This document shows positions 6,140 through 38,767 of a stretch of DNA of 45,563 bases, piece by piece. Source of the DNA: Caryophanales bacterium. Its GTDB lineage: Bacteria; Bacillota_I; Bacilli_A; RF39; UBA660. The translations under genes were made by a program, and so were the position numbers. A model generated the notes under the pieces. That model was not told the origin of the DNA and searched no databases. It saw nothing but the letters and a program-made list of their open reading frames with translations. How positions within the stretch are numbered: position 1 is the stretch's first letter; each line of letters starts with the position of its first letter. The stretch spans positions 1 through 45,563 of the forward strand of contig JAEEVN010000008.1 in NCBI GenBank assembly GCA_016290885.1. Reading direction: 5' to 3'.

Positions 6140-6151
6140 TCTTCCTTTTTT
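6126..6151. terminator. Bidirectional terminator between convergent genes
   Basis: Arms AAAAAGGAAGATT/AATCTTCCTTTTT form a near-perfect palindrome with A-run and T-run flanks. It includes the ytqA stop codon and reaches the stop codon of the carboxypeptidase gene. Confidence 0.75.
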
Positions 6152-7515
6152 TATTCATATCTACTTGTTATATTAAAATATTCTTCTACAGACTTACCTG
6201 ATTCAGTAATCTTTTTAGCCCATTCTTTACCAACATATCTTAGATGCCATGATTCATAGATATATCCTGTATATTCTTCTTTACCTTCAGGAAATCTTAC
6301 TATAAATCCATATTTCCAACAATTTTCTTTAAGCCATTCTGCTGCTTCTGTACCATTAAATGATTCATCAGGATTATTTATATCTGCAGCTAATCCACTT
6401 TGATGTTCTGAATGTCCTGGTCTTGATGAATAAGTATCTGCAACTTCTTGTCCATCCATAGCAACATAATTATTATAAATTGCTACTTGTGTACTATAAC
6501 TTCTATAACCGGATTGAATCCATAAATCTATACCATCTAGTTCCGCATGAGCTTGCATTTCATAAAATGCATCCATATATTCATCACTTAATCTACCTGG
6601 ATCATAATCTTCTGGTAATGGATATGTTTTATTAACAATTAAGATATCATCTATATAATATAATCCATCTCTATTAACTATTTCATATGTTTTTTCATCT
6701 TGCTTTTCTACTTTTTTCTTTTGTTTCTTTTTAATTGTTATCTTAACATCAGTACTAATATTATTCTTAGTATTTTTAATAGTTAATACAGTGTTCCCTT
6801 TCTTTTTAGCAGTTATCTTACTACCTTTTATTTCAAGTAAATCATTTGATGCTTTATATGTAATAGATTTATTAGTAGCGTTACTTGGTTTAAATTTTAA
6901 ATCTACATCTATTTCATCTCCTACATATACTGTTAATGTAGTTTTAGTATTAATACTTTCAAGTCCTACATATGTAATAAAATAATCATCATATTTTTTT
7001 GAAGTATCAAACGATATATATTTATCTTCTACTGTTACTCTTCTTTTATATAATTCATAATTACCATTTTTAACACCATATATATCTACTTCTTTATTCT
7101 TTCTTAAATAATATGGTAATTTTAATTTAATACTTATTGCTTCTTCAAGTATTTCATTATCTTTAATATATAGACCTTTTTGATTTTTAAATAAATCTTT
7201 ATTTATTTTAGTAGTATATTTATTTAAATCTAGATTAATATGATTCTTTATATAATTACCATTTAAAACTATATAATATCCATCATGTTTAAGGGTTATT
7301 TCATCAACATTCTCATTAATATAATTAATTGTTTTAGTCCATACTTTTAAATTAGTTCTATTAGTTTTTAAAACATTATCTTCTTTTACTGATTTAAAAA
7401 TATTATAATTAATAATCGCAGAAATACCTAGTATAATTAAATATACTAGCACTATAAGTATACCTAAACAATAAAGAATTCTATCGACTCTAAGTCTTTT
7501 CTTTCTTCTTTTCAT
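6151..7515 (-). CDS. Membrane-anchored D-alanyl-D-alanine carboxypeptidase (VanY type) with Ig-like domain
   Basis: The 454-residue protein has an N-terminal membrane anchor (about 10-32) after a very basic start, a linker domain, a bacterial Ig-like (BIG2) domain (about 190-265, LTVYVGDEIDVDL...GNTVLTIK), a Lys-rich linker, and a C-terminal LAS peptidase domain (about 300-445). The zinc ligands are visible in SEHQSGLAADI (about 370-380) and in WHLRY (about 423). The reaction should be removal of the terminal D-Ala from peptidoglycan stems outside the cell. No VanS/VanR genes are nearby, so this is ordinary wall maturation and not a resistance cluster. SD AGAGGG ahead of ATG 7515. Single-gene unit. 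Confidence 0.93.
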   Translation of the reverse strand: MKRRKKRLRVDRILYCLGILIVLVYLIILGISAIINYNIFKSVKEDNVLKTNRTNLKVWTKTINYINENVDEITLKHDGYYIVLNGNYIKNHINLDLNKYTTKINKDLFKNQKGLYIKDNEILEEAISIKLKLPYYLRKNKEVDIYGVKNGNYELYKRRVTVEDKYISFDTSKKYDDYFITYVGLESINTKTTLTVYVGDEIDVDLKFKPSNATNKSITYKASNDLLEIKGSKITAKKKGNTVLTIKNTKNNISTDVKITIKKKQKKKVEKQDEKTYEIVNRDGLYYIDDILIVNKTYPLPEDYDPGRLSDEYMDAFYEMQAHAELDGIDLWIQSGYRSYSTQVAIYNNYVAMDGQEVADTYSSRPGHSEHQSGLAADINNPDESFNGTEAAEWLKENCWKYGFIVRFPEGKEEYTGYIYESWHLRYVGKEWAKKITESGKSVEEYFNITSRYE

Positions 7516-8364: not shown

Positions 8365-8389
8365 TATAATTAAATTGGTGATTATTATG
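8365..8389 (+). promoter_or_regulatory. -10/SD cassette of murT
   Basis: TGT-TATAAT (8365-8370), N6, GGTGAT (8377-8382), N4, ATG 8387. The predicted start point lies at the SD, giving a leader of about 10 nt. No good -35 box is seen. Confidence 0.6.
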
Positions 8390-9700
8390 TTTGGAACTTT
8401 TGTAGGTAAAACAGTTTTTAAAATTACTAAAATTTTAAAACATGGTGGATCTACTTTCCCAGGGACAGTAGTATTAAAACTATTCCCAAATTATTTAAAA
8501 AAGATTAAATATCCTGATAATATAATTATGGTTACAGGGTCATGTGGAAAAGGATCTACTGCAAAGCTTATTACAAATATTTTAGAAGAAAATGGTACTT
8601 CAGTATGCACTAATAGTAATGGTGCAAATCTAACAGAAGGCATTGCTACTACTATTATTCTTAATGTTAAAGGAAAGAAATTAAAACAAGATGCATTAGT
8701 ACTTGAAGTAGATGAAAGATATTTAAAAATAATAACTAAATATATTAGACCTAAGTATTTAATTATAAATAATATAACTAGAGATCAACCACCTAGACAT
8801 GGAAACTTTGATATAGTATTTAATGAAATATTAAAAGGTATAACTAAGAGTACACATTTAATAGTTAATGGTGATGATCCTATTACCAAAAAATATAGTC
8901 TATATCATAAAGGAGAAATCGCATACTTTGGTATAGATAAATCAAAATATAGTTATAAATATCATGATGATGTAAAAGATTATAATTATTGCCCTAAATG
9001 TGGTTCTAAATTAAATTATGAATACTATAATTACGGATCTCTTGGTAATTTTAAATGTAGTAAATGTGATTATAAAAGAGAGGATATTAAATATGCTATA
9101 ACTAATATTGATTATGATACTAATGAAGTTACTATTAATAAAGAATATAAAATAAAAGTTAGTGCTAATGTATTATCTAATCTATATAATGTAGTAGCAG
9201 CTTTCTCTATCTCTGATATATTAAAAATTGATAGTAAAGTAATAGTATCTTCTCTATCTAAAGATATGATAGAAAATAAATTATATGAAGAATTTACAGT
9301 TAAAGATAGAAAATATACAATATTAAATTGTAAAGCAGAAAATAATTCTACTTATAACCTTGCTCTACTATATGCATCAAGAGATAAGAATCAAAAAACT
9401 ATAGTAATTGGTCATAGAGAAATATCAAGAAGATATAATCACTTTGATGTATCTTGGATGTATGATTGTTATTTTGAAATATTAAATAAAAATGATTATG
9501 TTATATGTGCTGGTCCTAATGCATATGACTTTGCAACAAGAATGAAACTAGCAGGTATTAAAAAAGAAAATATCATTGTATTAGAAGATTTAACAAATAT
9601 CAAAAAAATAGTAGAAGAACAAACAAAAGGAAATGTATATGGAGTACTTAACTTTGATTATGTAAAACCTTTTAAAGATAATATAAAGGAGGAAATATAA
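8387..9700 (+). CDS. murT: Lipid II isoglutaminyl synthase, MurT subunit
   Basis: The 437-residue Mur-ligase-like protein has P-loop GSCGKGST (about 51-58), a Cys4 zinc ribbon inserted in the ATP domain (YCPKCG...KCSKC, about 201-229) as in MurT, and a C-terminal domain with FDVSW near 353, where the MurT catalytic Asp is expected. With GatD it amidates alpha-carboxyl D-Glu of lipid II to D-iso-Gln on the cytoplasmic face of the membrane. Start set at ATG 8387. The in-frame TTG at 8375 lies inside the SD. Two bases separate it from gatD. The ligase residues look intact, in contrast to the partner. Confidence 0.95.
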   Translation: MFGTFVGKTVFKITKILKHGGSTFPGTVVLKLFPNYLKKIKYPDNIIMVTGSCGKGSTAKLITNILEENGTSVCTNSNGANLTEGIATTIILNVKGKKLKQDALVLEVDERYLKIITKYIRPKYLIINNITRDQPPRHGNFDIVFNEILKGITKSTHLIVNGDDPITKKYSLYHKGEIAYFGIDKSKYSYKYHDDVKDYNYCPKCGSKLNYEYYNYGSLGNFKCSKCDYKREDIKYAITNIDYDTNEVTINKEYKIKVSANVLSNLYNVVAAFSISDILKIDSKVIVSSLSKDMIENKLYEEFTVKDRKYTILNCKAENNSTYNLALLYASRDKNQKTIVIGHREISRRYNHFDVSWMYDCYFEILNKNDYVICAGPNAYDFATRMKLAGIKKENIIVLEDLTNIKKIVEEQTKGNVYGVLNFDYVKPFKDNIKEEI

Positions 9701-9701
9701 T

Positions 9702-10352
9702 ATGAAAATAACTATTGGATACCTTTATAGAGATCTATTAAACTTATATGGTGATGAAGGAAATATTAAAGCATTAAAATATCATTTAGAAGAACAAGGT
9801 GTTAATGTTGAAATAAAAGACATGACAATTGGAGATAAAAAGGATTTAAAAGATGTAGACTTCTTATATATTGGAAGTGGCACAGAACATAATATAAGTA
9901 TAGCATTAGATGATTTAATGAAAGATAAAGATGAAATAGAAAAATATATAAAAGATAATAAATTATTATTATCAACAGGAAACTCAATCGAATTATTTGG
10001 AAATTATATAATTACAAATAAAAAGATACAAGCACTTGGAATTATAGATTGTGTTTGTATGAGACAAGAAAGAATAGTAAAAGATGTAAAAGTAAAAACT
10101 GATATAGTAGAAAGTAATATTATTGGTTTTGAAAATCATGATGGAAAGAATATTTCTACAAATGATGATATAGTTAATGAGGGATCATTCTATGGTACAT
10201 ATATAGTTGGACCTATATTAGTAAGAAATCCTGAGTTATGTTCCCTATTCGTTCATAAACTTATTGATAGTAAAGATCCAAACTTTGAATATAAAGATGA
10301 AGATTATGAATTTGAAAATGAAGCATACAAAAAAGCAGTTAGAATTATCTAA
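9702..10352 (+). CDS. gatD: GatD-like amidotransferase subunit lacking catalytic Cys and His
   Basis: The 216-residue protein aligns with GatD along its length: RDLLNLYGDEGNIKAL at the N-terminus, YIGSGTEHN, GFENHDGKN (about 140) and GTYIVGPILVRNP (about 165-177). In GatD of Staphylococcus aureus the nucleophile is Cys94 in ICGGYQFLG and the base is His189 in YLHGP. Here the matching segments are STGNSIELFG (91-100, Gly93 in place of Cys) and YIVGP (Val169 in place of His). The oxyanion-side glycine pair and the Gln of the motif are also changed (N, S and E). As written, it could not hydrolyse glutamine. SD AGGAGG. Terminator inside its 3' end. Family membership is sure; enzymatic role is open. 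Confidence 0.9.
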   Translation: MKITIGYLYRDLLNLYGDEGNIKALKYHLEEQGVNVEIKDMTIGDKKDLKDVDFLYIGSGTEHNISIALDDLMKDKDEIEKYIKDNKLLLSTGNSIELFGNYIITNKKIQALGIIDCVCMRQERIVKDVKVKTDIVESNIIGFENHDGKNISTNDDIVNEGSFYGTYIVGPILVRNPELCSLFVHKLIDSKDPNFEYKDEDYEFENEAYKKAVRII

Positions 10353-21376: not shown

Positions 21377-21410
21377 AAAAAAATAAGGAATTATTAAATT
21401 CCTTATTTTT
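21377..21410 (-). terminator. Terminator of the repeat-built surface protein
   Basis: AAAAATAAGGAATT/AATTCCTTATTTTT stem plus T-run on the minus strand, overlapping the gene's stop codon. Confidence 0.8.
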
Positions 21411-23634
21411 GAACGTTTCTTCTATTTGGAATAAACTTAGTTCTACTTCTTCCAGTTGGTTCATAACCATCTGGTTTTTCAGTAGCCCAAGTATATTCTT
21501 CAGAACTTGAAGTTGTACGAGTTTTATATTTATATAATGTTCTTGTTTCAATATTATAAGTATATTCTCCTAAAGCTTCTTTAGAATCAACCCATTTACC
21601 TAAACTAATATATGTTGTATTAGTTGTAGTCTTTTCTTCAGTAGTTAATTCATATCCTTCATCAGCATGCTTTTCAGTTATCCACTTAGTATCTTTAATA
21701 TATCTTTCAGTTACTAAATGTTTATACTTATATTGAGTAACAGTTTGAATATTATATGTATATTCTCCTAAATCTGCTGTACTTTCTACCCATTTATTTA
21801 ATGGTTCATAAGTAACAGATGTAGTTGTATCTTCATTACCTGTTTTTTCATAGCCTTCTGGAGCTACATTTGATTCACTCCACATAATGTCTATAACATA
21901 TTTTTCAGGATTATTATATTTATATTTATATTGCATAACAGTTGTAATGTTATGTGTATATTCACCTAAATCTGCTTTATCAACAACCCATTTCATCATA
22001 TTTTCATATGTAGTTGTTCTAAGTGTAGATTTATTAGCGAATGTATAACCTTCTGGAATTTCTGATAATGGTTCATCAGTCCAGATTGTATCTTCAATAA
22101 ATTCTTCTACTTTTCTTACATTGTAGTTCCATTCAGTTTTAACTAGTGTATAACCTTTATCTAAGTATTCTTGTAAGTTAGTTACAACCTTAGTATCAGT
22201 TACTTTACCAGGTGTTGAATGTGGAACACAATATTCATATTGATATGTAGTAGCTTTTTTAGCTTTATAAACTCTATAGTAATATACATCTACTTTAGAT
22301 CTACCACCACAGTTAATTGTACATGGAGTTGATTCCATACTTAAGAAATCATATTTATAATCACCATCATATGTAGGCATTGTAGAACCAATTGATTTAT
22401 ATGAACTATCAACTAGTACCCAGTCTACTACATCAGTTTTAGCATTAACTGGTGATGAATTATATTTTCTACTTGCAGTATCTTTTGGAACACTTGAATA
22501 CCAATTATTATCTAATTGATAATTTGTACAAGTTATAGTTGGAGCATCAATTTCTTTAGTTACAGTATATCTAGTTTCTAATACTTTGATATCATCTGTT
22601 TCAGCTCTTTCAGCAGTTGTAAATCCTGTTTGAGTCCATGAAATCTTTTCACCAACTTTTACATATCTATATTTTTCTTCTTCTTTAACTATTTCTTTTT
22701 GACCAGTATAGATTTCTCTTTCTTGCCATTTTTTAACAGTTTCAGTTTCTTCTTTTGTATTAGTACTCCATTTTTCATCATATGTCCAGTTATCTCTGTA
22801 ACCATATTTTATATACTCATACATTTTAGTACCAGATTCAATTTTCTTTTCACCAGTATATAATGTTCTAGTATCTACTAATACATCTTCTTCAGTTTGT
22901 TTTTCTTCTGTAGTCCAGTTTTTATCAGTTTCCCAATAACTATTTGTACCATATGCTACTTCTTTGTATAAAGTAGTATTAGTATCAACTTTCTTTTGAC
23001 CAGTATATTCAGTTTTAGTATCAACTAATTTAATATCATCAGTTTCTTCTAACTTAGTTACTGTCCATTCACCAGTCTTCCATTGTTCATCTGATAATCT
23101 TTTAACGAACTCATATTCAGTTATATAAGTTCCATCTGGATTAGTTACTGTTATATTTCCATTATTATCAGTATTAGTTTTTACTTCTTCTTTTTTAGTT
23201 TCAGTACAACTAGCACCTTTACAGAAATCATAACATCCTATCTTTTCGATAATATACTTAGTTTCACCGTCACAAGTTAAAGATACCTTTAATTCGTATT
23301 CAGTATCACCTTTAGTAACTTTTACATATGACTTTTTAGTATCACATGCATTACCATCCTTATCAACAAATGGTAATAATAAATTTTGATCTAACATTTG
23401 TTGTAATGTCATCTTAGTTGAGCTACCAGTTTCACTAGGCATTCTTTCTACTGTATAGTAACTCTTAGCAGCATCTTTCATTGCATTAAGATTGTTGCTA
23501 AATACACCATCATAGAATGCAGTTAAATTTGGTATAGGTAATAATTTTATTAATAGAAATACGAAAATTGCTATTAATAATAACTTAACTAATAAATCTC
23601 TAATAAAAGTAGAATTATTATTGTTGTTCTTCAT
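21403..23634 (-). CDS. Large membrane-anchored surface protein with two repeat families
   Basis: The 743-residue protein has a short Asn-rich start, one membrane segment (about 13-33), and a small pilin-like head (about 45-150; MTLQQMLDQNLLLPFVDKDG then paired Cys residues). The body is two repeat series: units of about 45-50 residues with YTGQKK/YTGEKK and W-rich segments (about 180-350), and units of about 45 residues with KW-x6-LGEYTYNI-x4-QYKYK (about 540-720). The tail is basic (RTKFIPNRRNVQK) and has no sorting motif. The repeats suggest an extended stalk held by the N-terminal anchor. It has its own strong promoter and terminator. I do not know the ligand. Confidence 0.8.
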   Translation of the reverse strand: MKNNNNNSTFIRDLLVKLLLIAIFVFLLIKLLPIPNLTAFYDGVFSNNLNAMKDAAKSYYTVERMPSETGSSTKMTLQQMLDQNLLLPFVDKDGNACDTKKSYVKVTKGDTEYELKVSLTCDGETKYIIEKIGCYDFCKGASCTETKKEEVKTNTDNNGNITVTNPDGTYITEYEFVKRLSDEQWKTGEWTVTKLEETDDIKLVDTKTEYTGQKKVDTNTTLYKEVAYGTNSYWETDKNWTTEEKQTEEDVLVDTRTLYTGEKKIESGTKMYEYIKYGYRDNWTYDEKWSTNTKEETETVKKWQEREIYTGQKEIVKEEEKYRYVKVGEKISWTQTGFTTAERAETDDIKVLETRYTVTKEIDAPTITCTNYQLDNNWYSSVPKDTASRKYNSSPVNAKTDVVDWVLVDSSYKSIGSTMPTYDGDYKYDFLSMESTPCTINCGGRSKVDVYYYRVYKAKKATTYQYEYCVPHSTPGKVTDTKVVTNLQEYLDKGYTLVKTEWNYNVRKVEEFIEDTIWTDEPLSEIPEGYTFANKSTLRTTTYENMMKWVVDKADLGEYTHNITTVMQYKYKYNNPEKYVIDIMWSESNVAPEGYEKTGNEDTTTSVTYEPLNKWVESTADLGEYTYNIQTVTQYKYKHLVTERYIKDTKWITEKHADEGYELTTEEKTTTNTTYISLGKWVDSKEALGEYTYNIETRTLYKYKTRTTSSSEEYTWATEKPDGYEPTGRSRTKFIPNRRNVQK

Positions 23635-23767: not shown

Positions 23768-24025
23768 CTTTAATTCTACTATAGTTTGGCCTATATTTAA
23801 GTCTAAATAATAATTATCAATTCTTTTATCTCTTCTAAGATACTCATGAATAGCATTTTTTAAAATATTACCGCCTTTTCCATGAATAATAACTATCTTA
23901 TAATTTCTTAATTTTATATTATCTTTTATAAAATCATCCACTAAAACTAAAGCGCTATCTACATATTCTCCATGTAAATCTAAATGTGGAAGATTTACTA
24001 TAAAAGGATCTTCATATCTATTCAT
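23756..24025 (-). CDS. Stand-alone Smr-domain protein
   Basis: The 89-residue protein is one Smr domain with LDLHG (15-19) and the HGKGG loop (48-52). In MutS2 this domain is a nuclease that acts at stalled or collided ribosomes and on DNA. Stand-alone copies are common, with poorly known roles. It overlaps fhs by 8 nt (ATGAATAG) and is translated from the same mRNA. Confidence 0.9.
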   Translation of the reverse strand: MNRYEDPFIVNLPHLDLHGEYVDSALVLVDDFIKDNIKLRNYKIVIIHGKGGNILKNAIHEYLRRDKRIDNYYLDLNIGQTIVELKKNE

Positions 24026-25529
24026 ATTTATCCTTTAAATAATTAGATTCTTTAGCTAATCCTGGCATAGTCATAACATTACCCATATAAAGTACTATAT
24101 ACCCTGCTCCACTAAATACTTTAGCATCAGTAATAGTCATAGTATAATCCTTAGGGAAATTAAGTAACTTTTCATTATCACTAATAGAATAAGGAGTCTT
24201 ACATACACATATTGGTAATCCTTTATTATTCTCATTTAATAATTCAAGTTTAGCTTTAACTTCATCAGAATATACTATTTCCTTAGCATAGAACATATCT
24301 TTAATCTTATCTATCTTAGTAAATAAATCATCATTTAAATCATATATTTCATAATGTTTAGTATTATTTGGCATCTTTATTATTTCATTTGCTAAATCTA
24401 AGCATCCATCTTCACCATACTCAAACATAGTAGATAAACATACCTTTAAGTTATATTTATCTCCTAGAGTTTTTATGATATTGATATCATCTTCGGTATC
24501 ATCATTAAATTTATTAATAGATATAATTAAATTGCTAGTAAACTTAGACATATTTAATATATGATATTCTAAGTTTTTAATACCTTCATTTAAATCACCA
24601 TTACCATGATATTTAAGTGCTCTTATAGTACAATTAAGTACTATTACATCTGGATATAGATTACCTTTTCTGCATAACATATCTAAGAATTTCATAGCAC
24701 CTGTATCAGAACCAAATCCAGCTTCAGTAATACAGTAATCACTTAGACTAAGACCTAGTTTAATAGATTTAATACTACTTGATCCATAAGATATATTCGC
24801 AAATGGTCCAGTATGAACAATTACTGGATTATTATATAAAGTAGATACTATATTAGGTTTAAATGCATCTTCAAGCACATATAATAAAGAATCTACTAGT
24901 TTTAAATCTTTTACATATATCTCTTTATTATCTTTAGTATATCCTACTAATATATTACCTAGATTATATCTTAAATCTTCTATTGTTTCAGATAAACCTA
25001 CTACACTCATCATTTCTGATGCTGTAGTTATCATAAATGATGTTTCTTTTCCATTAATCATTACATGTCTTAGACTTCTATCATTAACATCTAAACATCT
25101 ATTAAATACTACTCTATCAATACCTAATTCATTTCCTTGATAAATACTATTATCTATTACTGCTGCTATTAAATTATTAGCATATGTAATAGCATGAAAA
25201 TCTCCAGTAAAGTTAAGATTAATCTTCTTTTCAGGTACTATTAATGCTTTCCCTCCACCAACAGCACCACCTTTTTTGCCAAATACTGGTCCCATAGATG
25301 GTTCTCTTAAACTAGCTATAGCATTAACACCTATTTTATTAAGTGAATCAACTAGTCCAATACTAGTAGTAGTCTTTCCTTCTCCATATGGAGTAGGATT
25401 AATACTAGTAACTAAAACTAATTTGCCTTTTGGTTTTTCTCCCTTGTAATCAATTTTAGCCATGTATTTACCATATAGTTCATAATCATTAATATTTAAC
25501 TTTTCAAGTATTTTAGTAATTTCTATCAT
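24018..25529 (-). CDS. fhs: Formate-tetrahydrofolate ligase (compact form)
   Basis: ATP-dependent synthesis of 10-formyl-THF from formate. Seen: P-loop TPYGEGKTTT (about 45-54), GPVFGKKGGAVGGG (about 83-96), LNFTGDFHAIT (about 107-117), EAGFGSDTGA (about 270) and a C-terminal PGLAKES. The length is 503 against about 556 usual, with losses at the N-terminus and between blocks, not a frameshift. Start at ATG 25529 behind GGTGAT; the frame begins upstream at 25547 inside the leader. Co-transcribed with the Smr gene. No folD nearby. Confidence 0.94.
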   Translation of the reverse strand: MIEITKILEKLNINDYELYGKYMAKIDYKGEKPKGKLVLVTSINPTPYGEGKTTTSIGLVDSLNKIGVNAIASLREPSMGPVFGKKGGAVGGGKALIVPEKKINLNFTGDFHAITYANNLIAAVIDNSIYQGNELGIDRVVFNRCLDVNDRSLRHVMINGKETSFMITTASEMMSVVGLSETIEDLRYNLGNILVGYTKDNKEIYVKDLKLVDSLLYVLEDAFKPNIVSTLYNNPVIVHTGPFANISYGSSSIKSIKLGLSLSDYCITEAGFGSDTGAMKFLDMLCRKGNLYPDVIVLNCTIRALKYHGNGDLNEGIKNLEYHILNMSKFTSNLIISINKFNDDTEDDINIIKTLGDKYNLKVCLSTMFEYGEDGCLDLANEIIKMPNNTKHYEIYDLNDDLFTKIDKIKDMFYAKEIVYSDEVKAKLELLNENNKGLPICVCKTPYSISDNEKLLNFPKDYTMTITDAKVFSGAGYIVLYMGNVMTMPGLAKESNYLKDKYE

Positions 25530-25551
25530 TTCGATCACCAATTTCATTATA
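25527..25551 (-). promoter_or_regulatory. -10/SD cassette of fhs
   Basis: TATAAT (25546-25551), N6, GGTGAT, N4, ATG 25529. Unlike the others, this one lacks the TGn before the -10. Confidence 0.55.
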
Positions 25552-25562
25552 CTACAAATAAT

Positions 25563-25591
25563 AAAAAAAAGAACTCTTTATTTGAGTTCTA
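25563..25591 (-). terminator. Terminator of the HAD/RluA/M15 cluster
   Basis: AGAACTC/GAGTTCT stem with an AT loop and a run of eight T on the minus strand, overlapping the HAD stop codon. Confidence 0.8.
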
Positions 25592-26089
25592 GAAATTCAT
25601 ATCAAGTAATTCTATTAAAGAAGTAATCTCTGTATACTTACCATTTTCTAAGTCTTTAACAAATTTAACTGCTATTCCCCCTGATTCTTGCCATTCTTTT
25701 AAATTACCAGAGAAATCATCTACAAGTATAGCACCTTTAGTTTGTGTCATCATAGTTTTAGAACATGCTTTAGGCACCGGAATAATAGTTAAATCATTAA
25801 ACAAACCATTTATAAATTCTATTTTAGCTTTAGCTTCTCTTAATGAATTAACATGAGTTAATATATTAATATTAAATTTTTTAGAATCTTTTAATTTCTT
25901 AATATTATTAATACTATCATTTAAAGCAGGACTTTCATCTATTAAAGCTTCCCAATCTATTTTTGAATAAAGAAGTCCTACTTCTTTAGTTTGTGTTTTA
26001 ACATCTAGATTAAGCTTTCTTGCTAAATCATATACTGGAGTTATAGTATCTAATATAACTCCATCAAAGTCTATATATAAATTCTTCAT
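25589..26089 (-). CDS. HAD-superfamily protein, 5'-nucleotidase-like
   Basis: The 166-residue protein has HAD motif I DFDGVILDT (8-16), a Thr in LTHV as motif II, a Lys in the PKACSKT region, and VDD as motif IV. It resembles the small 5'(3')-deoxynucleotidase (NT5C) group, though the substrate cannot be read from the sequence. Its ATG overlaps the TGA stop of the RluA-family gene (ATGA at 26086-26089). Confidence 0.82.
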   Translation of the reverse strand: MKNLYIDFDGVILDTITPVYDLARKLNLDVKTQTKEVGLLYSKIDWEALIDESPALNDSINNIKKLKDSKKFNINILTHVNSLREAKAKIEFINGLFNDLTIIPVPKACSKTMMTQTKGAILVDDFSGNLKEWQESGGIAVKFVKDLENGKYTEITSLIELLDMNF

Positions 26090-26745
26090 AAATTAACCTC
26101 CTTTAATATTTCCCAATCAGGTAAATATTTAAATTCCATTTCTTCTTTAGTAACTGGATGTATAAATTTAAGTTTATATGCAAATAATGCTATTTGTGCT
26201 TTTTCTCCTAAACCATATCTTTGATCACCATACAAAGGGAATCCTCTATTTGACATTTGTAATCTTATTTGATGATGTCTACCTGTCATAAGATCTACAT
26301 CTACTAAACTTAAATCTTTATCTTTATCATAATATAAAGTTTTATATATCAATTTACTTTCTTTACCATTTTCTAAATCTATATAAGAATTATTAGTTTT
26401 TTCATCTTTACTAATTTTATCTACTAATAATTCTTTATCTAGTGTTTTACCATGTACTATTGCTAAATAATTCTTATGAAGTGCTCCTATTCTAACAAGT
26501 TCACTTAGTCTTGAAGCAGCTTTAGAAGTCTTAGCAAATACCATTACTCCACCAACTGGTCTATCTAGCCTATGTACAAGTCCAAGATATACATTACCAG
26601 GTTTATTATATTTTTCTTTTAAATATTCTTTAATTATAGTAAGCATATCTTTATCATTAGTATCATCTCCTTGAGATAATACATTAAATGGTTTTACTAC
26701 TACTATTATATGATTATCTTCATACAATATGTTTAAATCTTTCAT
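26086..26745 (-). CDS. RluA-family pseudouridine synthase without S4 domain
   Basis: The 219-residue protein has the catalytic motif HRLDRPVGGVMVFAKT (about 57-72), MTGRHHQIR (about 155-163) and GDQRYG. It isomerises uridine to pseudouridine in rRNA or tRNA. It lacks an S4 domain and is like the short RluA/TruC forms. Start at ATG 26745 behind GAGGTGG, so the gene overlaps the M15 gene by 26 nt. Stop TGA. Substrate cannot be told from sequence. Confidence 0.92.
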   Translation of the reverse strand: MKDLNILYEDNHIIVVVKPFNVLSQGDDTNDKDMLTIIKEYLKEKYNKPGNVYLGLVHRLDRPVGGVMVFAKTSKAASRLSELVRIGALHKNYLAIVHGKTLDKELLVDKISKDEKTNNSYIDLENGKESKLIYKTLYYDKDKDLSLVDVDLMTGRHHQIRLQMSNRGFPLYGDQRYGLGEKAQIALFAYKLKFIHPVTKEEMEFKYLPDWEILKEVNL

Positions 26746-27400
26746 GGTCCACCTCGAAATGTTGATAGTCTTTAGTAGTGTCCCAATCTCCACCCCATTC
26801 AAAACCACTTTCATTGAATAGTCTATAAGCTAGGTCACTATGAACTATAACATGTTTCTTTCCATCTTCTCTATGTGTTAGATATTCTATTTCTTCAGGT
26901 GTTAAATTACTATAATCATATTTACCATTTCTAAATGGTAGATATGGATTTTCTCTAGGATTGATATCTATTGCATAACCACTAGAATGATTAGATAATC
27001 TATCAGTACCATATATCTTTCTATAAAAGAAAGCATATGAATTATTATCTGCGATAGATCTAGTATCTACTACATTTCTATCATCATCATCAGATTCAAA
27101 ATAATCATCTACTAATTTAAAACTTTTAACTTGATATCTTGCTTCAAATAGTCTTCCTAGCATTGATAAAACTACATCTTTTATTCTTTTATTAACAATC
27201 ATTTCTCCTACTCTTACTTTATCTTCATAATCATAATGTAAGAATTTAAGATATGATAAATCTTCTAACTTAATAAAATCATTTGGTACATAAGATTTAT
27301 TAATTATTCTATTATATACGTCATCTCCAACTACTATTTCTGATGATGTACATATAAAACTACTAGAATCATATAAGTCTCCTGCTTTATATTTTTCCAT
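26720..27400 (-). CDS. M15-family peptidase-like protein
   Basis: The 226-residue protein has a C-terminal half with the metal-binding pattern of M15/LAS peptidases: NHSSGYAIDINP (His and Asp ligands, about 145-156) and YQHFEVD (about 213-219), with GFEWGGDW before it. There is no signal peptide or membrane anchor, which is odd for a wall enzyme and suggests a cytoplasmic role or release by lysis. The gene sits inside a cluster of RNA-modification genes. Start at ATG 27400 behind AAGGAAT; the 27433 alternative lies inside the upstream gene. Confidence 0.8.
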   Translation of the reverse strand: MEKYKAGDLYDSSSFICTSSEIVVGDDVYNRIINKSYVPNDFIKLEDLSYLKFLHYDYEDKVRVGEMIVNKRIKDVVLSMLGRLFEARYQVKSFKLVDDYFESDDDDRNVVDTRSIADNNSYAFFYRKIYGTDRLSNHSSGYAIDINPRENPYLPFRNGKYDYSNLTPEEIEYLTHREDGKKHVIVHSDLAYRLFNESGFEWGGDWDTTKDYQHFEVDHERFKHIV

Positions 27401-27401
27401 A

Positions 27402-28271
27402 TTATTCCTTCTCCCATCTTCCATATATTCCACAAGGTAAATTCATTTTACTATTTTGCATAGGTAAACCTACTTCTCCATGTTGAATTATACCTTTATC
27501 TCCAAAATTAAGTAATAGTATATTTCTTAATACTTCAGAACTAATACCTGTAGTATAAGAATTAATTAAGAAGAATAATGGATCATCACTTAATACCTGC
27601 ATACATAATTTTACTAAGTCATAAAGATTTTCTTCAAATCTCCATACTTCTTTATTAGCTCCTCTTCCAAATGAAGGAGGATCCATTATAATTGCATCAT
27701 ATTTATGACCTCTTCTAATTTCTCTTTCAACAAACTTAACTACATCATCTACTATAAATCTAACATACTTATCTTCAAGTCCTGATGATTTAATATTTTC
27801 TTTAGCTACATCAACCATACCTCTTGAAGCATCAACATGTACTACATCAGCACCTGCATAAGCACAAGCAACAGTAGCGCCTCCAGTATATGCAAATAAA
27901 TTTAATACATTTATTTTTCTTCCAGAATTTTTAATTTTATTTATCATAAAATTCCAGTTATACGCTTGTTCTGGAAATAAACCTGTATGTTTAAATCCCA
28001 TTAATTTAAGATTAAATGTTAAATCTTTACAATGTATTTGCCATTCATCTTTAATATTATGTTTCTTTTCCCAAGCTCCTCCACCAGTAGAACTTCTATG
28101 ATATACTGCATCTGCTTTCTTCCATAGTTCTGGGAAAGTTTCATCTTTCCATATTACTTGTGGATCTGGTCTTCTAAGAATTACTCCATTCCAATCTTCT
28201 AATTTTTCTCCATGAGCCATATCTAATATCTTATATTCATCAAACTCATCAAAAATTTTTAAAGTACTCAT
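27402..28271 (-). CDS. Class I SAM-dependent methyltransferase, RlmI-like
   Basis: The 289-residue protein has a beta/WHLxF-like N-terminal part, SAM-binding motif I NLFAYTGGATVACAYAGA (about 125-142), VHVDASRG, and MDPPSFGRG (about 196-204), the DPPSF box of the RlmI/RlmK group of 23S rRNA methyltransferases. No PUA domain. The target base is unknown. Start at ATG 28271 behind AGGTGAT. It leads the cluster with the M15, RluA and HAD genes (overlaps or gaps of no more than one base). Confidence 0.88.
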   Translation of the reverse strand: MSTLKIFDEFDEYKILDMAHGEKLEDWNGVILRRPDPQVIWKDETFPELWKKADAVYHRSSTGGGAWEKKHNIKDEWQIHCKDLTFNLKLMGFKHTGLFPEQAYNWNFMINKIKNSGRKINVLNLFAYTGGATVACAYAGADVVHVDASRGMVDVAKENIKSSGLEDKYVRFIVDDVVKFVEREIRRGHKYDAIIMDPPSFGRGANKEVWRFEENLYDLVKLCMQVLSDDPLFFLINSYTTGISSEVLRNILLLNFGDKGIIQHGEVGLPMQNSKMNLPCGIYGRWEKE

Positions 28272-28294
28272 CTCGATCACCTAGATAAATTATA
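28269..28294 (-). promoter_or_regulatory. -10/SD cassette of the methyltransferase cluster
   Basis: TGA-TATAAT (28289-28294), N6, AGGTGAT, N4, ATG 28271, directly after the T-run of the RluA-gene terminator. Confidence 0.6.
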
Positions 28295-28303
28295 TCATAA
28301 ATT

Positions 28304-28335
28304 ATAAAAAAAGAAACTTTTCAAAGTTTCTTTTA
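28304..28335 (-). terminator. Terminator of the RluD-like gene
   Basis: AAAAGAAACTTT/AAAGTTTCTTTT stem followed by T7 on the minus strand. Confidence 0.8.
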
Positions 28336-29196
28336 TTTTATCAACTTTTTAAATGATGTAGGCATTTCAGTTCTAAATACTCTCTTCTTATTATCTCTTG
28401 GATCAATTAATTCTATCTTATATTGATGAAGAGCCATTCTCTTAATTAGAGATTTACCATCTCCATATTTCTTATCTCCTACTATTGGATTACCTAAATC
28501 TTTAAAACTCACTCTTATTTGATTCTTTCTACCTGTTCTTATATTTATATCAAGTAAAGAATAATCTTTATTTTCTTTTAATACTTTATATTCTGTAACA
28601 GATAATTTACCTTCTTTTTTATTATTAGTAGAATATACCATAAATGTTTTATCATTCTCTACTAAATAGTTTTTAATAGTACCTTCTTTTTCTTTTAGAT
28701 TACCATTAACTACTGCATAATATTTTCTCATCTTAACTATACTGTCCCAATTATTTTGGAACATGTTCTTAGTTTTTTGATTTTTAGCAAATATAACTAC
28801 TCCACTAGTATCTTTATCTAATCTATGAATAACAAATACTTTATTATTCTTATTTTTACTCTTTAAATAATCTGATACAAAGTGATATAAAGTATATTCT
28901 TTTTCATCTTTAGTAGCTATTGAAAGAAGTCCATATGGCTTATTAATAACTATTAAATCTTCATCTTCATATATTATATTTAAATTGCTTTTTATTTTAG
29001 ATACTTTAATCTTTGTTTCTCTTATCTCTATTTTATCTGTTTTATGTACTAAATAGTCATATCTAGTTTGAATATTATTATTTACTAATACCATTTCTTT
29101 AGATAAGAAAGATTTAATATTATTCTTAGAATATTTAGTTAAATTATTTCTTAAAACATTAATTAATATATCTTCTTCCTGACTAATAAATTCCAT
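28333..29196 (-). CDS. RluA-family pseudouridine synthase with S4-like N-terminus
   Basis: The 287-residue protein has an N-terminal S4-like RNA-binding region (about 15-60, LxxxLTKYSKNNIKSFLSKE and VNNNI), the catalytic motif HRLDKDTSGVVIFAKN (about 125-140) and RTGRKNQIR (about 220-228). It is of the RluD/RluB-like build and a second pseudouridine synthase in 3 kb. SD AAGGAGAT ahead of ATG 29196. It lies 38 nt after murE, with a palindrome between them. Confidence 0.92.
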   Translation of the reverse strand: MEFISQEEDILINVLRNNLTKYSKNNIKSFLSKEMVLVNNNIQTRYDYLVHKTDKIEIRETKIKVSKIKSNLNIIYEDEDLIVINKPYGLLSIATKDEKEYTLYHFVSDYLKSKNKNNKVFVIHRLDKDTSGVVIFAKNQKTKNMFQNNWDSIVKMRKYYAVVNGNLKEKEGTIKNYLVENDKTFMVYSTNNKKEGKLSVTEYKVLKENKDYSLLDINIRTGRKNQIRVSFKDLGNPIVGDKKYGDGKSLIKRMALHQYKIELIDPRDNKKRVFRTEMPTSFKKLIK

Positions 29197-29211
29197 ATTA
29201 TCTCCTTTCTT

Positions 29212-29239
29212 AAAATAAGTTAAGATATCTTAACTTATT
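29212..29239 (-). terminator. Palindrome between murE and the RluD-like gene, weak terminator
   Basis: Perfect 14-bp arms AAATAAGTTAAGAT/ATCTTAACTTATTT. On the minus strand only TTATTTT follows and the SD of the next gene is close, so partial termination with read-through is likely. Confidence 0.5.
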
Positions 29240-30698
29240 TATTTAAATAATTTATTACTATTTCCTTTTCACTAAAAGGAACTTTTTTATCTCCTACTAT
29301 TTGATATGTTTCATGACCTTTACCTGCAAGTAAAACCAAATCATCTTTCTTTGCCATATCAAGTGCATATTCAACTGCTTTCTTTCTATCAGTAATAATA
29401 ATATATTGATCTGTAACTTCTTTTACTCCCTTTTCTATTTCTTTAGCAATTTGCATTGGATCATCATATTTAGGATTATCTGATGATATTATTGTAAAGT
29501 CTGCTAAAGTACCAGATATTTTACCCATTTTAGGTCTTTTTCTAGCATCTCTATCTCCAGGAGCACCAAATACACATATTATTCTTCCTTTAGTATAAGA
29601 TTTAACTGCTCTTAATATATTATCTAAACTATCTTCTGAATGAGCATAATCTATCATTACTGTTAAACCTTTATCATTGTTTACAAGTTCACTTCTTCCA
29701 GGAACTCTAACTTCTTTTAAACCATCTAATATATATTTAGTATCTATATTTAATTCTTCACAAATAGAAATAGCACCTAAAGCATTATATACAGTAAATT
29801 CTCCAGGTATACTTATTTTTACTAATTCTTCTTTACCATTTATATTAACATTAAATGTAGTTAATTCATTTGTAATATTTATATTAGATGCTCTTTTATC
29901 AGAATCATTTTTAATACTATATGTCTTAAATTTACAATTAGGTTTTAAATCAATTAATTCTCTACCTTTTATATCATCAACATTAACTATACCTTTATTT
30001 GTCATATCAAATAAACCTGCTTTACATTCAAAGTATTCTTCCATATTAGCATGTTCATGTGGAGAAATATGATCTTCTGATAAATTAGTGAATAAACCTA
30101 AATAGAAATTACAACCATCTACTCTACCAAGTTTTATACTTTGAGAAGATACTTCCATAATTGCATATTCACATTTTTCATCAACCATTTTTCTAAACAT
30201 TTCTTGTAATTCTAAAGCTTCAGGAGTAGTTCTTCCAGAATCTGTTCTATCAGAACCTAACATTTCATCTCCTATATAGCACGCTACTGTACCAATTAAG
30301 CCTACTTTTTTACCAGAATCTTCTAATATCTTCTTTACCATGAAACTAGTTGTAGTTTTACCTTTAGTACCAGTAATACCTATTAATTTTATTTCTTTAG
30401 TAGGATTATCATAGAAGTTACATGCTAATTTACCCATAATACTTCTAGTATCTTTTGCAGTTAAAACTTCTACATCTAAATCTTTAAATTCATCATATCT
30501 ATTTTCATCTATTAATATTGCACTAGCTCCATTACTAATTGCACTAGATATAAATTTATGTCCATCTTTTTCAAATCCATTAATAGCAATAAACATATAA
30601 TCTTTTTCTACTTTTCTTGAATCAAATGTTATATGTTTAATATCTATATCGTTAGTTACTTTAACATCTGTTTCTTTAAATATTTTGCTTAATAACAT
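29235..30698 (-). CDS. murE: UDP-MurNAc-tripeptide synthetase MurE
   Basis: Adds the third amino acid of the stem peptide in the cytoplasm. Seen: P-loop GITGTKGKTTT (107-117), the carbamylated Lys region, YAHSEDSL (about 355) and DNPK (407-410). The length of 487 is normal. The substrate-selecting motif is DNPR for meso-diaminopimelate ligases and often DNPA or DDPN for Lys ligases. DNPK is neither, so the third residue cannot be named with confidence. SD AAGGAGAT. It has its own promoter and probably reads through to the RluD-like gene. Confidence 0.95.
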   Translation of the reverse strand: MLLSKIFKETDVKVTNDIDIKHITFDSRKVEKDYMFIAINGFEKDGHKFISSAISNGASAILIDENRYDEFKDLDVEVLTAKDTRSIMGKLACNFYDNPTKEIKLIGITGTKGKTTTSFMVKKILEDSGKKVGLIGTVACYIGDEMLGSDRTDSGRTTPEALELQEMFRKMVDEKCEYAIMEVSSQSIKLGRVDGCNFYLGLFTNLSEDHISPHEHANMEEYFECKAGLFDMTNKGIVNVDDIKGRELIDLKPNCKFKTYSIKNDSDKRASNINITNELTTFNVNINGKEELVKISIPGEFTVYNALGAISICEELNIDTKYILDGLKEVRVPGRSELVNNDKGLTVMIDYAHSEDSLDNILRAVKSYTKGRIICVFGAPGDRDARKRPKMGKISGTLADFTIISSDNPKYDDPMQIAKEIEKGVKEVTDQYIIITDRKKAVEYALDMAKKDDLVLLAGKGHETYQIVGDKKVPFSEKEIVINYLNK

Positions 30699-33691: not shown

Positions 33692-33717
33692 GAAAAACTA
33701 GGATTTATCCTAGTTTA
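33692..33717 (-). terminator. Terminator of the first wall-associated protein
   Basis: AAACTAGGAT/ATCCTAGTTT stem with T-run on the minus strand. It includes the stop codon. Confidence 0.75.
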
Positions 33718-35959
33718 TTCTTTTCTTCATATATAGTCCTACTAATGTTAAACCTACAATACTTATTCCAAGTAATACTATACTCTTTATAATTCCATCA
33801 TATGTTTTTGGACTAGTAACATTACTTCCAGTTAACATATATGTACTTAAATGTGGAATAGTTCCTACCAAATAATCACCATCTACAGTTAAGTTATTAA
33901 CTTCACCTACAGTAAAATCATTCTTTAGATATAATAATTTAAATGTATTATAGTTTTTCATATCATCAGTAATTTTTATTTTTACTTTAAATGGTCCTTC
34001 ATGAAGTGATGTTGTATCTCCTGTAACATTATTATCTTCATATACTTCTATTTCATATAGTTTTAATAATGTTCCATATGGTTTTGCTATTTCATTTAAT
34101 AATGCCATCATTTCATTATATGTTTCCTCAGTTAAAGTTTCATCCATTGCCATTATTTCTTCTTTACTTAAAGAAAGTATATCAAACATTGTTAATTTAT
34201 AATTATGACCTTTTTCATCAGTAAATGAAATAGAGTTTCCATTTTCATCAGTTACTGTATAATCTTTTAAGTCATCATTATTTATCCATCTGGCATATAA
34301 AGTTAAGTCTCTATCTACTAAAGATTCGAAATTATATGAATAATTTAATTCTGGTTCAATATACCATCCACCAAATGTATAACCGTCCTTTGTTGGTGCT
34401 GCTGGTCTTTCTAATTCTTTTCCATCTTCTACTTCGACAGATTTTACTTCTGATCCACCATTAGTATCAAATTCTACTTTATGTTTACGAGCTATAACTT
34501 CTCCTTTAGTAGCTATTGCATAATTTGAGAATGAATCTGTATTAAATACAATTGCATTTTGATTTTCAATATATTCCGTTTCAATTATTTCATATTTTCC
34601 ATCATGTGTTTCATGGACAACAACTACATCTTGACCATTAACATTATCATCTAATTGTAAACTAATTTCTGCTTTATTATCTAATTCTTCTACTTTAGTA
34701 TCCCAACTTTGTGTTTCACTACCTTTATATACTGTATTAAATAAAGACATATCTAAATAATTCTTTACTTCATATCCATCAGCTGCTTTTTCAAAATTAC
34801 TAATTTGTTCATTAGATAATTCTACATCTTTTACATCTAATCTAGCAGTTCCAATAGACATAGATCTTTCGTTACCTAAAGTAATAGCTCCTGCAGTTAC
34901 TTTACTAGATCTTGTATTAACTTTATCATCAACTTTAGCTATTTCTGCTTGTAAGTGGAATGGTCCACTCTTAACTTCAAATGTATATGTTCCTATTTCT
35001 TCTTGTGGTTCAAATGGAGTACCATTTAATCCAAAATTTACTAATTGGTATCCTGAATCAGGAATAATTTTTACTGTTAACATTGTTCCTTTAGGAAATT
35101 GTGCTTCACCACAACCTTCTCTATCATCAGTATAACTATCTTTTCTTGGAGCATCTCTCCAGATATAAACACCACCTAAAGCATTTACTTGTTCTGGGGT
35201 TGTATATGTATGTCCATTATATTCTGCTTTTACAAATGTTAGAGTTCCGTGTAATATTTTATCATCTGGTCCTGTATACCCTTCTGGATTATAGTCCCAT
35301 AAAAAGTTACTCATAAATTCTTCATCAGAATTTGGATATCTAGCTTCAATTGCTATATCATAATGACTAGCTTTAGTTATACCATTTACTGGTATTTCTA
35401 ATGTATGATCAACATAACAATCCTCTAATTCTTCAGCTGTTTTTGGTAAATTTGTTATTTCTGTTCCATTAATTGTTAGTCCTGTCATTAATGTTCCAGG
35501 AGCCATACTAAATACAAAGTCTACTGTATCTCCAGTTGCATCATAACTAATAGTATCCCCAGTTATAGTAAGCGCTGTCTTTTCAGTTATTTGTTGACCT
35601 GTTTCTGGGTCTAATATAGGAATTGGTTGATTATTATCACCCATTATTGGATTTCCTTGATAATCCCTTTCAACTGCAGGTTCCTCAGTATATTGCATCT
35701 TAGATTCATTTGCTTTATATTTAAGACCATTTATTCTAAATGATATACCGTGATCATATCCACCACCTGATGTATATTCAATAGAGCCATTAATTTTATA
35801 GTTTAATGATGCAGTACTATTTCCGTGATAAGTACTAGTGTCATCACTAATTTCTGGCACAGCATGTACTTTGCCAAATGGTATAAATGGTATAATAACA
35901 AATAATAAAAGTGTTATTGTTCCAACTACCGATAAGAATTTTTTAGATATTTTATTCAT
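33710..35959 (-). CDS. Secreted surface protein with InlB-type repeat and PKTYDGI sorting-like tail
   Basis: The 749-residue protein has a signal peptide (about 1-33, ending ...KVHA), a long beta-rich body, one InlB B-repeat/Flg_new domain (about 493-560, VEFDTNGGSEVKSV ... GYTFGGWY), and a C-terminal membrane tail: SPKTYDGI (about 713-720), a hydrophobic segment of about 20 residues, then KKRIN. The tail has the build of a sortase signal without the LPXTG motif. The neighbour at 36040 ends in the same way. SD AGGAGGATAT fixes the start at 35959. Function is unknown; adhesion or wall display is inferred. Confidence 0.85.
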   Translation of the reverse strand: MNKISKKFLSVVGTITLLLFVIIPFIPFGKVHAVPEISDDTSTYHGNSTASLNYKINGSIEYTSGGGYDHGISFRINGLKYKANESKMQYTEEPAVERDYQGNPIMGDNNQPIPILDPETGQQITEKTALTITGDTISYDATGDTVDFVFSMAPGTLMTGLTINGTEITNLPKTAEELEDCYVDHTLEIPVNGITKASHYDIAIEARYPNSDEEFMSNFLWDYNPEGYTGPDDKILHGTLTFVKAEYNGHTYTTPEQVNALGGVYIWRDAPRKDSYTDDREGCGEAQFPKGTMLTVKIIPDSGYQLVNFGLNGTPFEPQEEIGTYTFEVKSGPFHLQAEIAKVDDKVNTRSSKVTAGAITLGNERSMSIGTARLDVKDVELSNEQISNFEKAADGYEVKNYLDMSLFNTVYKGSETQSWDTKVEELDNKAEISLQLDDNVNGQDVVVVHETHDGKYEIIETEYIENQNAIVFNTDSFSNYAIATKGEVIARKHKVEFDTNGGSEVKSVEVEDGKELERPAAPTKDGYTFGGWYIEPELNYSYNFESLVDRDLTLYARWINNDDLKDYTVTDENGNSISFTDEKGHNYKLTMFDILSLSKEEIMAMDETLTEETYNEMMALLNEIAKPYGTLLKLYEIEVYEDNNVTGDTTSLHEGPFKVKIKITDDMKNYNTFKLLYLKNDFTVGEVNNLTVDGDYLVGTIPHLSTYMLTGSNVTSPKTYDGIIKSIVLLGISIVGLTLVGLYMKKRIN

Positions 35960-35997
35960 ATATCCTCCTTTAGAATACACTTCTCTATTCTATTATC

Positions 35998-36025: not shown

Positions 36026-36052
36026 AAAAAAAGATGTCACTAGACATCTTTT
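36026..36052 (-). terminator. Terminator of the beta-helix surface protein
   Basis: Arms AAAGATGTC/GACATCTTT around TAGT, then T7 on the minus strand. The stop codon is in the loop. Nearly the same 27-nt element ends a methyltransferase-like fragment at 42157-42183. Confidence 0.85.
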
Positions 36053-38703: not shown

Positions 38704-38738
38704 ACTACACCTTCCTTTACTATTTTTATTACATATTA

Positions 38739-38767
38739 ATATTATCACAAATTACTATTCATATCAA
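38739..38767 (-). promoter_or_regulatory. Promoter of the beta-helix surface protein
   Basis: TTGATA (38762-38767), 17-nt spacer ending in TGA (extended -10), TAATAT (38739-38744). Confidence 0.7.

Follow-up and report, generated by a model that had tools for sequence, protein, structure and literature searches.

Proteins of a GatD subfamily that lacks both the catalytic cysteine and the catalytic histidine, encoded beside murT and hosted mostly by gut or rumen bacteria, are co-inherited with an ATP-grasp ligase which does not accompany the canonical pair. This partner gene is the new finding of the analysis. In major Gram-positive pathogens MurT-GatD is essential and serves as a drug target. 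Its annotation by homology as a D-iso-glutamine (D-iso-Gln) synthase cannot hold by the known mechanism in a large gut lineage, to which the bacterium studied here belongs. That the pair joins an amino acid or a diamine, instead of glutamine-derived ammonia, to the α-carboxyl of D-Glu in the cell wall precursor is a reading we hold with about as much confidence as doubt. A fuller proposal, in which the Cys/His-less GatD-MurT and the ATP-grasp enzyme together build a group B-like bridge on lipid II in gut Bacilli, Erysipelotrichia and Clostridia, with the glutaminase converted into an amine-presenting subunit, is put forward more tentatively and could well be wrong. The features discussed are collected in Table 1; the window is the whole stretch of 45,563 nucleotides that was analysed, from the genome of an RF39-like member of the Bacilli.

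Table 1. Position of the features in the window and, where a locus is named, in other contigs.
Feature	Position	Strand	Basis
gatD homologue without catalytic Cys and His (type I)	9702..10352	+	alignment, AlphaFold2, Foldseek
Rewritten nucleophile elbow T-G-N-S-I-E, codons 92-97 (canonical [IV]-C-G-G-Y-Q)	9975..9992	+	
Arg124 = SaGatD Arg128 (glutamine-capturing), retained	10071..10073	+	
Val169 at SaGatD His189	10206..10208	+	alignment
murT (alternative upstream start TTG at 8375)	8387..9700	+	Mur ligase middle domain, Zn-ribbon cysteines, MurT C-terminal domain
MurT loop CKAEN = canonical K-N-P loop with 2-residue insertion	9329..9343	+	
MurT loop ISRRYNHFD, replacing canonical D-N-x-x-D-D-G-x-D; last Asp = SaMurT Asp349	9422..9448	+	
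murE; binding motif DNPK	29235..30698	-	
VanY-type D-Ala-D-Ala carboxypeptidase near the pair, a further peptidoglycan sign	6151..7515	-	
Five-gene type II operon: ectB-like, murT, gatD, ornithine-racemase-like, ATP-grasp	L034 5925-11353 (G000 contig C4, about 23924-29352)		
G444 operon (Erysipelotrichaceae, water buffalo rumen): CHAP/Ig-like wall protein, SpoVB/MurJ-like flippase, ATP-grasp, murT, type II gatD	L259 4056-10128		

The gatD homologue of the window begins 1 nt past the murT stop and encodes 216 residues, whose full set of cysteines is Cys117, Cys119 and Cys180 and whose full set of histidines is His28, His63, His146 and His185. It matches the GATase_3 family (PF07685) with 55 bits against a Pfam cut-off of 27. 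Pairwise alignment to the solved GatDs of S. aureus (5n9m, 6gs2), S. pneumoniae (6fqb) and S. pyogenes (9sq9), together with a 37-row MAFFT alignment, bears out the original prediction: Gly93 aligns with Cys94 of S. aureus GatD and Val169 with His189, and the CGGYQ motif is rewritten as GNSIE. The gene had also been described as not degraded, in agreement with the present data: the AlphaFold2 model has a mean pLDDT of 96.2, Foldseek ranks S. aureus GatD, free and in its complex, first among PDB entries (TM 0.90 to 5n9m), and the GatD-specific C-terminal helix is present at residues 203-215. Moreover, dN/dS between close pairs is 0.08-0.21, and gatD is under purifying selection.

Relatives were gathered by a same-genus search, a class-wide search and one scan of genome contigs, the searched genomes being drafts. 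The variant occurs beside murT in every same-genus genome examined, and the contig scan recovered 418 relatives, the nearest 80 of which all lack both catalytic residues. Hosts among these nearest 80 are Erysipelotrichaceae, Oscillospiraceae, other Clostridia, Mogibacterium and RF39-like Bacilli, mostly from gut or rumen. Ruminococcus bromii ATCC 27255 and 5AMG are also hosts, and the Cys/His-less type is the sole GatD in both of these genomes and in most of the 16 genomes searched whole; gatD adjoins murT in nearly all loci examined. The original prediction was right about the oddity of the window gene, which belongs to an ancient and widespread subfamily that could not be seen from a single sequence. 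An isolated mutation, a pseudogene and a contaminant are ruled out by the same-genus relatives, by dN/dS and by the flanks of a second operon on contig C4, which are the same in the same-genus genome G006. Furthermore, no canonical GatD was found elsewhere in the window genome: the one further GatD homologue, encoded on contig C4, likewise lacks Cys and His, and the remaining GATase_3 matches, on contigs C47 and C40, are weak. A search of the literature library used here returned nothing on Cys-less GatD.

A comparison of 129 distinct GatDs without Cys and His, taken from RF39-like Bacilli, Erysipelotrichaceae and Clostridia, shows the nucleophile elbow replaced by a new, strict motif, T-G-N-[S/A]-x-E (T 100%, G 100%, N 95%, S/A 98%, E 84%, D 6%). 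At Cys94 all of them have Gly (100%) and at His189 Ile, Thr, Leu, Val or Ser, while the equivalent of Arg128 is Arg in 96% and the interface residue Pro191 is kept. A displaced catalytic Cys or His is ruled out by the column statistics of the same 129 sequences: there is no other conserved Cys column, and the only His columns above 40% are position 8 (75%) and position 187 (46%). In a MurT tree, built without GatD sequence and repeated with 152 rows, the partners of Cys/His-less, canonical and Glu/Arg-type GatDs separate, and the split by GatD type requires the fewest possible changes. The loss is ancient, and MurT has evolved along with it. The Glu/Arg type is a third kind of GatD adjoining murT, seen at L046 5848-6630 (G085) and L094 3897-4664 (G096), in which Glu stands in for the Cys and Arg for the His (AIEQxYKYLG, QLRGPIL), and its MurT partners form their own branch.

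The description of the MurT partner as intact-looking was accurate. The window protein scores above the Pfam cut-offs for PF08245 and PF08353, and its catalytic residues are kept along with the Mur ligase, Zn-ribbon and C-terminal domains, including the P-loop Lys, the acidic D-E Mg site, the acceptor Asn, and the K/N and D/R loop residues. ATP, metal and acceptor are bound in the structure from S. pneumoniae by Glu110, Asp112, Glu113, Asn132, Asn85, Asp136, Arg140 and Lys321 (PMC6085368), and these residues are invariant in the partners of Cys/His-less GatDs; K55, E107, D109, E110, N129, N81, C202, C205, C224 and K316 of MurT are invariant. Judged from these positions, the MurT of Cys/His-less GatDs is predicted still to be a ligase. 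Conserved insertions fall in the two loops that lie closest to the acceptor and to GatD. The K-N-P loop becomes K-x-E-N, in which the Glu is present in 96% of the partners of Cys/His-less GatDs and in 0 canonical MurT, and the loop ahead of Asp349 becomes ISR[RK]Y, with the new Tyr in 95% of the group. The equivalent of Asp349, which faces GatD, is Asp in the window (9446-9448) and Glu, Thr or Ala in some relatives.

The pair therefore resembles MurT/GatD of S. aureus and S. pneumoniae (NF045635/NF045636) in gene order, in the ATP and acceptor residues and Zn-ribbon of MurT, and in the fold, interface Pro and Arg128 of GatD. It departs from them in the absence of the GatD Cys and His, the TGN[SA]xE motif, the 2-residue insertions in two MurT loops and the co-inherited ATP-grasp gene, and both proteins lie far under the NCBIfam equivalog cut-offs (GatD 100.7 bits against 400 for NF045636, MurT 207.6 bits against 800 for NF045635).

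The original proposal that glutamine could not supply the ammonia by the known mechanism is well supported by biochemistry from S. aureus. The substitutions C94A, H189A and R128A abolish the glutaminase activity of GatD (PMC5871853), and C94G, the same Cys to Gly change as in the natural proteins, abolishes glutamine-dependent amidation (PMC3266927). By analogy with these mutants, the window GatD is predicted not to hydrolyse glutamine. The likeness to C94G is partial, since the natural proteins also lack His189, their pocket is rebuilt and their lineage is old.

The association with the ATP-grasp ligase was established by running a profile of its family, that of the type II operon described below, over genomes of known GatD state. 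Of 40 variant genomes in the class, 36 carry the gene and four do not, against 0 of 28 canonical ones (p = 4e-15). Within the family of the window's host it is found in 33/37 genomes which carry the pair and in 2/30 without MurT-GatD (p = 2e-12), or in 24/28 versus 2/28 when counted by genus (p = 2e-9), all three values being Fisher tests, which ignore shared ancestry. One genus (g32) has a genome with both the pair and the ATP-grasp gene and another with neither. Outside the class, nine of 13 further variant genomes have it (one duplicate removed), and the four of 14 without it include Massiliimalia and two others; the two Glu/Arg-type genomes both lack it. Most family genomes devoid of MurT-GatD keep several Mur ligases, so the association does not simply oppose walled to wall-less bacteria.

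Operon structure connects the ATP-grasp gene to wall synthesis. In G049 the order is murF-ddl-dinD-ATP-grasp-trpS-murT-gatD, murA lies near the gene at six loci, and an Erysipelotrichaceae operon unites it with a wall protein, a flippase and a type II pair (Table 1). In Mogibacterium gatD is followed directly by the ATP-grasp gene, in Alloscillospira the latter adjoins murT, and its R. bromii counterpart overlaps a gene for alanine racemase (TIGR00492, 236 bits, above cut-off); the same-genus genome G009 has the order flippase-racemase (Alr)-ATP-grasp. Among the nearest ~80 loci, type I pairs share no conserved cell-wall neighbour except the ATP-grasp gene in a few, and in the window the immediate neighbours, yebC and rpsP, give no pointer to the amine used. 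A search of the PDB by sequence found no relative of the ATP-grasp protein.

The window genome (G000, 1.11 Mb) contains, on contig C4 (L034), a second Cys/His-less MurT-GatD pair belonging to a separate branch, type II. The pair is part of a five-gene operon with gaps of 2-11 nt, together with an ectB-like (diaminobutyrate) transaminase gene (TIGR02407, 565 bits, above cut-off), an ornithine-racemase-like gene (NF040742, 345 bits, below the cut-off of 480) and the ATP-grasp gene (PF14397, "sugar-transfer associated ATP-grasp", 170 bits). Same-genus G006 has the same operon and flanking genes. EctB occurs in 4/98 relatives and strong type II MurT matches also in 4/98, with three genomes common to both; in G056, which has a type I pair only, ectB adjoins a gene of this ATP-grasp family. 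By gene neighbourhood, the link to a diamino acid supply is clear for the type II pair and indirect for the type I pair of the window. B2γ walls contain diaminobutyrate as their diamino acid (PMC5945732), and from the operon this RF39-like bacterium is predicted to have D-diaminobutyrate in its wall. The genome has a peptidoglycan precursor pathway, as murE is in the window and MurC, MurD and MurF are on other contigs. The binding motif of this MurE is DNPK, where meso-diaminopimelate enzymes usually have DNPR, and the third residue of the stem may be another diamino acid.

Since the glutamine-cutting site is lost and a second ligase gene travels with the pair, a nucleophile other than glutamine-derived ammonia is probable. 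The glutaminase half would have been permanently off since an ancestor, leaving the complex to serve a different precursor modification system; the simplest account is one that ligates amines to carboxylates of the peptidoglycan precursor. By analogy with canonical MurT, we infer that MurT still activates a carboxylate with ATP, the likeliest being the α-carboxyl of D-Glu in the lipid-linked precursor, and joins to it what is most likely an amino acid or a diamine; for the type II pair this would be diaminobutyrate, probably in the D-form. GatD would remain an obligatory subunit, and its old glutamine pocket, with Arg128 kept and Glu98 gained, may bind the incoming amine. The co-inherited ATP-grasp enzyme probably acts on the same bridge by adding or processing a further residue, e.g. 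by attaching a second one to the first at its carboxyl. The resulting wall would be like group B (or A2) peptidoglycan, where an amino acid is attached to the α-carboxyl of D-Glu, and established wall chemistry suggests that a group B bridge would require a chain of ligases acting on carboxyl ends. The type II operon, with its predicted D-Glu carboxylate-amine ligase, diaminobutyrate transaminase, racemase and second ligase, would suit bridge formation of this kind.

Two other systems offer partial parallels. In Cyanophora, N-acetylputrescine is carried on D-Glu and is attached during the lipid stage, as cited in PMC3266927, which is a precedent for an amine other than NH3 on lipid-linked D-Glu, albeit in another group of organisms and with no enzyme named in the citing passage. 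Pseudomurein Mur ligases accompanied by MurT/GatD show that homologues occur in a wall of non-standard murein, the archaeal MurT/GatD being a clade of their own (PMC11915815).

Three options had been left side by side in the original prediction, i.e. use of free ammonia, a different role, and GatD as a structural partner of MurT. The different role is now favoured because of the ATP-grasp gene, the diaminobutyrate/racemase operon, the strict new motif and the matched MurT loop insertions, while free ammonia is less likely and a structural GatD fits either.

The main rival is continued synthesis of D-iso-Gln on lipid II, with free ammonia as the nitrogen source and GatD kept as an activator of MurT. 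Ammonia in gut and rumen, where most hosts live, would make a glutaminase dispensable, and both the MurT catalytic residues and Pro191 at the GatD interface are retained. C94G GatD with MurT performs amidation with NH3 at pH 8.5, and MurT requires GatD in every case, even with NH3 (PMC3266927), so that use of ammonia and retention of a GatD without glutaminase are both conceivable. However, the same paper reports no such activity seen at pH 7.5, and free ammonia leaves unexplained why the ATP-grasp gene is inherited with variant and not with canonical pairs, why ectB, orr and alr are neighbours, why MurT has matched loop insertions, and why a dead pocket should strictly conserve a new motif with Glu. 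We regard it as unlikely, while taking it seriously.

It is less probable still that the pair and the ATP-grasp enzyme act outside peptidoglycan, on another envelope polymer or a cofactor. This explanation draws on four draft genomes of the window's family (G011, G032, G053 and G229) that keep both the Cys/His-less pair and the ATP-grasp gene and in which no MurC-F was found, G229 lacking MurG above cut-off as well, and on the Pfam name of the ATP-grasp family, which refers to sugar transfer. MurG is nevertheless present in G011, G032 and G053, the genomes are drafts, and elsewhere the ATP-grasp gene sits in operons with murF-ddl, murA and flippases. The draft genome G045 also has MurG and no detected MurC-F. 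Scavenged precursors, missing bins or another pathway could account for such absences, and the idea of a pair kept without any wall, raised by four genomes with one Mur ligase domain each, is weakened by MurG in three of them.

Production of D-iso-Gln with ammonia supplied in trans, by another glutaminase or an ammonia-producing enzyme, is very improbable. In principle another subunit can feed a class I synthase, and the GatD fold and MurT interface remain, but no glutaminase recurs near the nearest ~80 loci of the contig scan, and the sole co-occurring gene, the ATP-grasp ligase, has no glutaminase domain. Finally, the loss of both catalytic residues might suggest a functionless, decaying remnant, which is refuted by purifying selection, a strict motif across many families, adjacency to murT and an intact fold.

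If an amino acid is indeed attached by MurT-GatD, an enzyme would be supplied for walls with a bridge on D-Glu, the group B walls, for which we know of no identified ligase; the same literature library yielded nothing on group B bridge ligases and no biochemistry or muropeptide data for the hosts of Cys/His-less pairs. It would also imply an unusual wall chemistry, and perhaps altered recognition by NOD receptors, in commensals such as R. bromii, and would clearly exemplify an amidotransferase that has lost its glutaminase and kept the subunit. The question is directly testable in cultured R. bromii strains.

Two further observations concern the window itself. A protein of 743 residues without a Pfam family is encoded amid conserved housekeeping genes (21403-23634, minus strand). 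In addition, two large Listeria-Bacteroides (Flg_new) repeat proteins, probably surface proteins, are encoded side by side on the minus strand at 33710-35980 and 36040-38748.
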